From NCBI GenBank assembly GCA_024275575.1, contig JAJRYV010000117.1:1-64000 (forward strand): a DNA stretch of 64,000 bases, read 5' to 3'. The position numbers and the translations under genes were made by a program. Of the stretch, positions 54,700 through 60,564 are shown in pieces (position 1 is the stretch's first letter; every line of letters begins with the position of its first letter). This DNA is from a bacterium (GTDB lineage Bacteria > Zhuqueibacterota > Zhuqueibacteria > Zhuqueibacterales > Geothermadaptataceae). The notes under the pieces are model-generated. The model made no database searches. It saw only the letters and a list, made by a program, of their open reading frames with translations, and was not told the DNA's origin.

Positions 54700-56955
54700 A
54701 TGCCTGATGTCACTGCAGCGATTATCAAAACACTGCCCGGCCTGGCAAAATGGGGTTATAAAAAATACCAGCAAAGCCATACTGATTTTACAAACATCGC
54801 CAGGGCAACCCTCACGACTGTTCTCATAAAACGTAATGAGAATTTTCATATCGTCCAATAAGCAGTCGATAGCCTGTTCACCGACCCCGATATGCAAGAA
54901 TGGCTCAATGGCGCGCAACTGCCGGTGGATTTGACCTTCGAAAAACTTGCCGGCCGCGTGAAACTCGATCCCTGGGTGGTGCGGGAATTTCTCGAATCTT
55001 TTACTCGCGAAATCACCACTCATCCGACCCTGCGCGAGGACTTGAATCTGCGGCGTTCGGGTGAGCTTGTTGAAACCAGCCGCAAGCATCTCAAATTGAA
55101 AGAACAGGAGCTTGCCGGCCCTGCACGGGAACGCCAACAGGCCTTCGCCGAATACCGCATGAAAGTGCGCGAAACATTCTCCAGCATCATGCTTTTCGGT
55201 GAACGTTCTCCCGGCGGTGAAGAAAATGTATTCGAGCGTATGTCTGACATCCGGCGCGGTTTTGTCCCCCTGAACCTGAAACCCTGGCCGAATGAAGAGG
55301 TGCACCAACAGCCATCCTCACTTGGAATCGATGACCTGTTTTTCAACAAGCGGCCGCGATTAATGCTCATTCGGGGGCTGCCGGGCGGCGGAAAAACCAC
55401 CTTGCTGCGCTATCTCGCCTGGCGTTTTACTGCGGCTGACAGCACTATGCTGCCGGTCTACATCCGTCTGAAATTTCTGGACCTGAGCACGGAATCCCTG
55501 CTCGATTTCATCCATAGAGAAGTCAGCGCCTTGTGGACAAATCCAGCCATTGACGACGCTTTGCGCCACAAGGATTGCTTTCTCGAAAAACCAATGCTCA
55601 TGCTGCTCGATGGTATCGATGAAATCAAGAGCGCTTCAAGCCATGCAAAGTTTGCCGAAGCATCAAATACGCTGGCTTGCAGGGAAAAAAACGGTGCCAA
55701 ATTATCGTTACCTCGCGCCCTATTGAACTCAAAAAGGAAGATTACCCGGAATTCGAAGCATTTGACCTCGATAAACTCACAAAGCCGCTGATCGCCGACT
55801 ATGTACAAAAATGGTTTGGCGCCGGGCAGGACAAAATTGATCTGCTATGCTTTCAGCGCCGATGGTGACGCTGCATTCATCAATCGCCGTAGCGCCCTTT
55901 ATGAAGCCTGTACACAGCGTTTATTGGCACGCATGTACCGGCTTGATGATGAAATGCCGGTGAAAATGAAAAAAACCACAAACCCTTGCCATGCTCAAAG
56001 ATCTGGCCCTGTGCTTTTTTCTCTGGCAGGAACCGGAGTTTCCGGCAGATCAGGTCAACGTGCTCGGTCGGCGTGTGCTCTCCGCCGACGCCCTGAACAT
56101 CGCCTCTGAAACGCTGGACGACTGTGCAGCGCACGACCGGACTGATTCAGTGCGCACAGGAGGGTTACACCTTTGTTCATCGCTCATTATGGGAATACTT
56201 TACCGCCAACGCTTTGCATACAAAAACGAAAGATGATGCGAAATTCATCATCAAACATGCGGCTAATCCGGATTGGGAAGAGGTGGTGCGCCTCTATGCC
56301 GGTTTGCTGCAAAACGAAGACGAGGTGAAAAAACTGATCGTCGGTTTATGGCAAATAAACAAACCGCTGGCACTGCGTGTTTCCACCGAAGTGGTTATGG
56401 ATACGGCAAGCTTGCTCCAACCCTTGCTTGATAACGAAAGCGGCGGTAACCAGGATATGTTGTTGCTCATCGATTTTATCGCTCAATCCCTGCCGCTGGT
56501 GCTGGGTGAAGAAGCACGCAACAAACTGGTTGCTGAAACCCTGCGCATTCTGTTTTTTGATTGCGCCGTAACCGATTGCGAAGTGCTCTACCATGCCCAG
56601 ATGCTGTTGGAAAAACAGGGCATGCAGCCACTCGAACCCGGCGGGTTCATATACAATCTGCTTAAATTGGACCATGCTGTCGAACGCCAGCGTAACCTGC
56701 TCGCCGATCCACAAAATCTCTTTGAATGGATCGAGGTGCCAGGCGGCGACCCAGGCGGAAAATCTCAACCAATTGGGGCTGGCAAATATGCTGGGCAACG
56801 TCTGGGACTGGTGCTATGATTGGTTTGGTGATTCTAAAATATCGGAAACCGTGCAGGAAAATCCAACCGGTACAAAATACGGCCGTAACCGTGTTTTGCG
56901 GGGTGGCGCGTGTAACATCAATGCATATAATCTGCGATGCGCCGTTCGCCACTAA
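54700..56955 (+). pseudogene. DGR target gene: NACHT/STAND ATPase with C-terminal FGE-fold variable domain, disrupted
   Basis: Pieces in one order but several frames encode an N-terminal helical region, a NACHT ATPase with Walker A GLPGGGKTTLLRYLAW and Walker B MLMLLDGIDEI, IIVTSRPIELK, a helical part with EGYTFVHRSLWEYFTANAL, and a C-terminal formylglycine-enzyme-like fold (MLGNVWDWCYDWFGD, RVLRGGACN). It is broken by a TAA at 54859-54861 (CAA-TAA context), by frame changes near 55690, 55860, 55965, 56120 and 56760, and by a loss of roughly 130 residues of the FGE fold. The ATG at 54700 has AGGG upstream. The final exon-like part contains the variable repeat. Such targets are putative antigen-sensing conflict proteins. 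Confidence 0.85.
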
Positions 56956-57003
56956 AACACACCCACGCTTCGAAACCTCAATGTGGGTTTTCGTAGTGTT
57001 CAG
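56889..57003 (+). repeat. DGR variable repeat (VR)
   Basis: This 115-bp segment at the 3' end of the target aligns without gaps to the TR at 58490-58604 (offset +1601). There are 12 differences; 11 are at TR adenines (for example TR A at 58511, 58513, 58519, 58527, 58551, 58554, 58568-58570, 58578, 58579). One is G to A (58556). Coding effects include N to I, N to Y, N to H and N to L. The AAG codon became TAA, ending the target frame at 56955. The last 24 bp match the TR exactly and would be the initiation-of-mutagenic-homing region. Confidence 0.95.
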
Positions 57004-57049
57004 GACGGCTCTGTCACGCTTTGCGTCCTTTTTACTCTTTTTAACTTGT

Positions 57050-57076
57050 TCCCGCGCAGCGGGATAATTTTTTTTT
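57050..57076 (+). terminator. Terminator-like hairpin downstream of the VR
   Basis: TCCCGC/GCGGGA (57050-57055/57059-57064) forms a 6-bp stem with loop GCA, followed by TAA and a long T run. It lies 47 bp after the VR and immediately before avd. It can act as a terminator or, like hairpins near the VR in other DGRs, help target recognition. Confidence 0.75.
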
Positions 57077-57080
57077 AAAA

Positions 57081-57425
57081 ATGGCACATTCTGAAAATAT
57101 TCTTACATTAATGTACGATTTTTTGCTTTATCTTTTCCCTGAGCTATCCAGATTCCCTCGTGATCACAAGTTTGTCTTGGGTGACCGCGTTCAAAAATTA
57201 GCGTTGGATATCCTGGATGATTTTATCGTAGCTTACTATTCGAGAAATAAATTGGACAGGCTACGGGAAGCAAATTTGAAACTGGAGCAACTACGCTTTC
57301 TCATCCGCCTGAGTCACGACCTTAAATGCTTGAGTCATAAAAAATACGGTATCATTTCGAGTAAGATCAATGAAATTGGCGGCACTATCGGAAACTGGAT
57401 CAAGTCAATAAACAAAGAGCGATGA
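57081..57425 (+). CDS. avd: DGR accessory variability determinant, Avd-like four-helix protein
   Basis: The 114-residue product is all-helical with the Avd pattern: hydrophobic first helix (LTLMYDFLLYLFPELSRFPRDHKFVLG), DRVQKLALDILDDFIVAYYS, then LKLEQLRFLIRLSHDLKCLSHKKYG. Avd proteins form basic pentamers that bind the DGR RT and TR RNA. Its stop overlaps the RT ATG in an ATGA arrangement. Unlike its neighbours it is intact. No Shine-Dalgarno is evident behind the terminator hairpin, so its translation is unclear. Confidence 0.92.
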   Translation: MAHSENILTLMYDFLLYLFPELSRFPRDHKFVLGDRVQKLALDILDDFIVAYYSRNKLDRLREANLKLEQLRFLIRLSHDLKCLSHKKYGIISSKINEIGGTIGNWIKSINKER

Positions 57426-58516
57426 AAACCTATAATAACCTGTTTTCGCAAATTTACTCGTTCGAAAATTTACTGCATGCCGCAAGAAAAGCACGTTTGG
57501 GCAAGCGGTTCCAGCACTATGCCGGACGATTTTATGCTAATCTGGAGTATGAGCTTATCGCGCTACAAAACGAGCTGCAACAGAAGAGCTATCAGCCAGG
57601 AGAATACCGGACCTTCACAATTTTTGAGCCAAAACAACGCATGATTTCCGCTGCACCGTTTCGTGACCGGGTGATGCATCATGCCTTATGCAATGTCATC
57701 GATTCATTATTCGAGAAGAAATTTATTTTCGATAGTTATGCCAATCGTAAAAACAAGGGTGCTCACAAAGCTGTGTTGCGCTATCAGCACTTCTGCCGTA
57801 AAAACAAATACGTCTTGAAATGTGATCTTCGAAAATACTTTCCATCTATCGGCTAAGAAATTCTCAAGCAACAAACCCGACGAACGATAAACTGTCGTGA
57901 GACACTGTGGCTGATTGATCGCATTATTGACGGAAGCAATCCGCAAGAGCCAGTTTTGGAATATTTTGCCGGGGACGATCTCTATACGCCGTTGATACGC
58001 CAACGTGGCTTGCCCATTGGCAATTTGACCAGCCAGTTTTTTGCGAATGTGTACCTAAACCCCTTTGACCATTTTATCAAGGAGCAGCTCGGTATTCGCT
58101 ACTATCTGCGTTATGTTGATGATTTCGTTATTTTAGGGCAGGATAAACGCCGGTTACACTATATCAAATGTGAAATTGAGGAATATTTGGATTTTCTTCG
58201 CTTACGTTTGCATGAGCATAAAAGCCAGGTTCGCCAAACGGCACAAGGCGTGACATTTCTTGGATTTCGTGTTTTTCCAAGATTCCGACTTTTACCACGA
58301 AAAAATATCAACCGTGCCCGTCGGCGCTTGAAGCACTTGCAAAAGAAATACAGTATGGGCGAAATTGATCTGCAAGTTGTCAGTCGCGCAGTAAATGGCT
58401 GGAACGGACACGCTGATTTTGCAAATAGTTATCGCCTGCGGCAAAAAATTTTCGCGGAATATACTTTTAAAAGGTTTAATTCCGAAGCTCCGTGTTTTGC
58501 GGGGTGGCGCATATAA
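57422..58516 (+). pseudogene. DGR reverse transcriptase, interrupted by one in-frame TAA
   Basis: The frame is open from 57422 to 58516 (365 codons) except for a TAA at 57854-57856 (codon 145). The sequence is a DGR-type RT: KCDLRKYFPSI with the first catalytic Asp, [18 protein letters not shown] (the DGR form of motif 4) and YVDDFVILG (codons 231-234), then a thumb region with GFRVFPR. The stop follows KYFPSIG, where relatives have a conserved acidic residue, so the 144-residue product would lack YVDD. Its C-terminus overlaps the first 27 bp of the TR. Whether the TAA is real or an assembly error is open. Confidence 0.9.
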
Positions 58517-58604
58517 CAACAATGCAAATAATCTGCGATGCGCCGTTCGCAACAAGAACACACCCACAAATCGAAACAACAATGTGGGTTTTCGTAGTGT
58601 TCAG
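58490..58604 (+). repeat. DGR template repeat (TR)
   Basis: This 115-bp segment lies at the 3' end of the RT gene and overlaps its last codons. It contains 35 adenines, of which 11 differ in the VR; its remaining positions differ at only one. Read in the target frame it encodes an Asn-rich stretch ([17 protein letters not shown] and so on), mostly AAY codons, which give no stop codon on A mutation, with a single exposed AAG at 58554-58556. Confidence 0.95.
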
Positions 58605-60288: not shown

Positions 60289-60452
60289 TCAATCCTCAAA
60301 CTATTCTCAATTAAGTCCTGTAATTCCAATTTATTATTTTCCATGCAGCATTTTTAAAAAACCGCGTACAATCATTGCTTAGCGTCTGATAATCAACGAA
60401 TTGTCCCTTTAGAAATAATTGATCGCGGCGCCCAACTTTTAGAAAGTATTTA

Positions 60453-60530
60453 TTTTAGCCACTGATATGCACGGATTAAACACTGATTTAAATGTATCTG
60501 TGTCTAATCGGTGTGAATCCGTGGCTAAAA
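60453..60530. repeat. Long imperfect palindrome of the 'ttttagccac...' type
   Basis: Arms ttttagcca/tggctaaaa (9 bp), cggatt/aatccg and cactgatt/aatcggtg (one wobble) nest around a central 20-bp loop. Elements of this kind recur between genes of many bacteria. It lies between wecB and the ligase gene and has no coding role. Confidence 0.65.
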
Positions 60531-60564
60531 TTTGGCGCGGATTTGTTTGCTTCGAAACAACCCG

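Follow-up and report, generated by a model that had tools for sequence, protein, structure and literature searches.

The locus at positions 54,700–58,604 of the window, by which we mean the whole analysed stretch of 64,000 nucleotides, is very probably a degenerate, pseudogenised diversity-generating retroelement (DGR) whose target was formerly a NACHT-FGE protein. In DGRs, the reverse transcriptase (RT) and Avd copy the RNA of a template repeat (TR) with errors at adenines, and the resulting cDNA replaces a variable repeat (VR). A sequence-only reading of this DNA had proposed a complete element, with target gene, avd, RT and TR in the order expected for a DGR. All these parts are found on the forward strand, and the order is the same as in an intact orthologue of the same family. 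It is the completeness that does not hold, because both the target and the RT gene are broken.

The repeat pair carries a genuine adenine-specific signature. Direct alignment of the VR (56889–57003) with the TR (58490–58604, sharing 27 bp with the 3' end of the RT gene) reproduces what had been read from the letters, that is, a gapless match of 115 bp with 12 differences, 11 of them at TR adenines. The adenine share, given before as about 30%, was counted as 35 of 115 bases, so that at least 11 differences at adenines would be expected by chance with a probability of 1.8e-5 (binomial) or 5.5e-6 (hypergeometric). The twelfth difference is a G to A change, the only one among the 80 non-adenine sites. 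Such a low count suggests that the last retrohoming was recent, and possibly the decay too; dating the decay by these differences was dropped, since one change in 80 sites is too few for this purpose.

The two genes for the machinery are recognizable as well, as had been claimed. The avd gene (57081–57425) is an intact open reading frame of 114 aa that matches NF033474 over its cut-off (E 2.2e-31) and PF22296 (E 1.8e-23). A short hairpin, TCCCGC-GCA-GCGGGA, is predicted by folding in the interval between target and avd (57048–57062), and a comparable one lies at the same place in the orthologue. The RT gene (57422–58516) overlaps avd by 4 bp and its RVT_1 matches are real. It retains the IGNLTSQ and YVDD motifs, and its identity of 44–69% to RTs adjoining adenine-specific TR/VR pairs places it in the DGR clade. 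The upper value is that of the orthologous RT over 351 aa, and the changes relative to it fall mostly at third codon positions. The gene is interrupted by an in-frame TAA (57854–57856) located between motif A and YVDD, where the window reads PSIG-stop-EIL and the orthologue and other relatives read PSIDHEIL (IG*E against IDHE). Therefore, the product of the RT gene would end before both IGNLTSQ and YVDD. The region of the stop holds four changes in six bases with respect to the orthologue (GATCAT to GGCTAA).

The damage to the target gene (54700–57078) is more extensive. No open reading frame covering the whole target was found in three-frame translation, and a tblastn search with the intact 925-aa orthologue (L031:2261-5035) matched it only piecewise, in three frames, over the segments ~54700–55676, ~55677–55850, ~55861–55974, ~55979–56119, ~56124–56750 and 56758–57078. 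The remnants of a NACHT STAND ATPase and of a C-terminal FGE/C-type-lectin domain are still matched by Pfam (NACHT, E 1.5e-7; FGE-sulfatase, E 1e-12), so the earlier assignment of both domains is probably right for the former protein, but they now stand on separate, broken reading frames. The lesions of the target comprise two in-frame stops, a deletion in the FGE core and frame changes at five places. The first stop is a TAA in the N-terminal part (54859–54861), recognized by three-frame translation and alignment with the orthologue, and the second lies within the VR (56953–56955). Four of the frame changes are clustered at 55670–56125 (near 55676, 55850–55861, 55975 and 56122), and about 24 aa are missing near 55850–55861 in comparison with the orthologue. 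The fifth, at about 56755, coincides with the junction of the internal deletion (56750–56760), where the tblastn segments for orthologue residues 493–707 and 830–925 abut in different frames. Residues ~708–829, about 122 aa or 366 bp comprising most of the FGE domain, are thus absent.

The orthologue that permits this comparison comes from candidate division KSB1 bacterium S139_20, of the same family, and is found on a 5.7-kb contig, WFTM01000260.1 (L031; with L068 for the same DGR). Its target is a continuous protein of 925 aa in which NACHT (E 1.6e-17) and FGE (E 2.8e-45) are united in a single chain, and its 124-bp TR/VR pair has all 18 differences at adenines. As in the window, the arrangement is target, avd, RT and TR, with NACHT and FGE sequence in the target and the TR located 3' of the RT gene, and avd is 79% identical between the two loci. 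In contrast to the window copy, which is broken in both genes, target and RT are uninterrupted. Judged by this sequence comparison, the intact orthologue shows the state from which the window locus would have decayed.

In its working form, the element would have used its RT and Avd to make, from the TR RNA, a cDNA with adenine-specific errors. This cDNA would have been substituted for the VR, where the C-terminus of a NACHT-FGE sensor was encoded, in such a way that the present VR may be considered a record of past retrohoming. Later pseudogenisation would have shifted the frame of the target, cut it within the lectin-like domain and closed it by stops, and would have ended the RT before YVDD. 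With both genes in this condition, the locus would no longer be expected to display a variable protein or to carry out any more mutagenesis. The intact avd and the otherwise well conserved RT are a counterpoint to decay. They could be taken, together with the fragmentation of the draft assembly into 144 contigs, as signs that the DGR is intact and active and that its stops and frame changes arose by error during sequencing or assembly. We think that this is highly improbable. The rest of the 64-kb window is packed with full-length open reading frames and the lesions are restricted to the DGR island. Besides, the loss of about 366 bp of the FGE core and of about 24 codons elsewhere in the target does not resemble base-calling noise, nor does an RT stop placed inside such a dense cluster of substitutions. 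Sequencing error was thus rejected as the main cause, given the full length of the neighbouring genes and the presence of two deletions among the lesions.

Remote VRs are known in some DGRs, and the TR of the window is intact, so RT and TR might persist for diversifying a target elsewhere in the genome. We give this hardly any credence. The RT is interrupted, and a search of the whole genome with the TR returned only this TR and its own VR, the next best match being of 16 bp. Searches with PF00078 and with the TR found neither another DGR RT nor a second VR in this genome, which, together with the full-length neighbours, argues for a decayed DGR rather than for noisy sequence. The only other PF00078 RT of the genome (L001:1-2313, on contig G000:C21) is a 771-aa RT-Cas1 fusion at a contig edge, with RVT_1, GIIM and Cas_Cas1 matches, a group II maturase-type region and the character of a CRISPR adaptation RT. 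It was rejected as a supplier in trans because it is not a DGR RT.

The decayed DGR also offers some hints on how it died. The TAA within the VR corresponds to the TR codon AAG, the sole codon in the TR frame that adenine mutagenesis can convert into a stop. Its first base differs from the TR by A to T, consistent with such mutagenesis, and its third base is the lone non-adenine difference of the pair, G to A. For the A-to-T change in this stop codon, the simplest explanation would be that the mutagenesis of the element itself produced it. In the reconstituted BPP-1 DGR, conversion of AAG into a stop occurs at ~1% (PMC12875486), and natural TRs prefer AAY codons, which avoids stop conversion (PMC4159848). 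Before its RT was lost, either the element wrote its own stop at AAG or it continued to rewrite a target that was dead already; we consider it rather unlikely that events went in one of these two ways, although, if true, the locus would be a snapshot of the death of a cellular DGR. A proposal on the order of decay, which refines the reading as a decayed DGR and does not compete with it, is that the target died first, the RT wrote into the dead VR and was interrupted afterwards. The target bears about 8 lesions in 2.3 kb, compared with 1 in the 1.4 kb of avd and RT (P of about 0.08 if evenly spread), and TR and VR show that single non-adenine difference. The excess of lesions is not significant, and such small numbers are also compatible with simultaneous decay, so this order can be held just tentatively, somewhat short of an even chance.

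Regarding the genomic site, no DGR stands at the corresponding gdhA-epimerase junction of the congener G001, whose epimerase is 93% identical. The junction (L063:2935-4947) holds instead an oxidoreductase gene together with a small antitoxin/PIN-like pair, as named from their open reading frames. Therefore, the site seems to be variable, and the DGR was either gained in the lineage of the window or lost in G001. Another congener, G002, was rejected as an intermediate. Its junction contigs have no DGR homology, although they do not span the site, and the only relevant RT piece of this genome is a DGR-type fragment of ~80 aa in another gene context (L050:3687-3926), which counts as another decayed DGR of the genus, at a different place. 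A phage origin was also discarded, for no match was found in phage records and the RTs of viral contigs reach at most 43% identity. PADLOC made no defence-system call on the window piece and gave only weak matches for the orthologue. Downstream, between the epimerase and an AMP-ligase-like gene, there is a 36-nt imperfect inverted repeat (60452–60531) that is 81% complementary, with arms 8 nt apart.

The RT of this kind is present in 19 of 82 genomes of the phylum. As 26 of the 29 RT matches are free of stops (the window's is among the three that are not), an interrupted RT is the exception. Among 100 RT-bearing loci, the majority have adenine-specific TR/VR pairs inside open targets. The intact targets of the phylum that were scanned (n = 11) combine NACHT with FGE in seven cases, CHAT with FGE in one and PEGA with FGE in one, and two have FGE alone. 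A relative (L047, on G034:C67) has an apparently intact multi-target DGR, with one TR, one DGR RT and two VRs in separate large targets of 1109 and 1159 aa.

The suggestion that this type of locus may be undescribed has to be withdrawn, given these seven targets and the published record. NACHT proteins fused to a DGR-diversified CLec domain, of which FGE is a subtype, have been described as putative antigen sensors (Doré et al. 2024, PMC10907252), and a survey of conflict systems (eLife 2020, PMC7159879) reports their association with FGS domains and DGRs. DGR 3 (NACHT-CLec targets) and the clade 5D STAND-CLec DGRs of Thiohalocapsa PB-PSB1 and others resemble the window locus in the STAND/NACHT ATPase joined to a C-terminal diversified CLec/FGE domain, a probable former fusion in the window; this set includes complete loci with observed population variation, whereas the window has one pseudogenised copy (PMC10907252). 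Loci comparable to ours, in which DGR machinery is pseudogenised or absent, are already described as 'degenerate' in Thiohalocapsa PB-PSB1 (Doré et al. 2024, PMC10907252). One complete locus of every class is retained there alongside them, unlike in the genome of the window, which has no other DGR RT. Among the papers searched, we found none describing the NACHT-FGE class of DGRs in KSB1, but the novelty of the host is by itself modest and the locus represents an established type in a defunct state.

In our opinion, the locus by itself is of little importance, beyond illustrating that the DGR signature can outlive the working element. It follows that catalogues which go by an RT match and a TR/VR pair will include dead loci as if they were live. 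Intact NACHT-FGE DGRs are common among the relatives of this organism in candidate division KSB1, and these constitute a good set for the study of diversified immune-like sensors.
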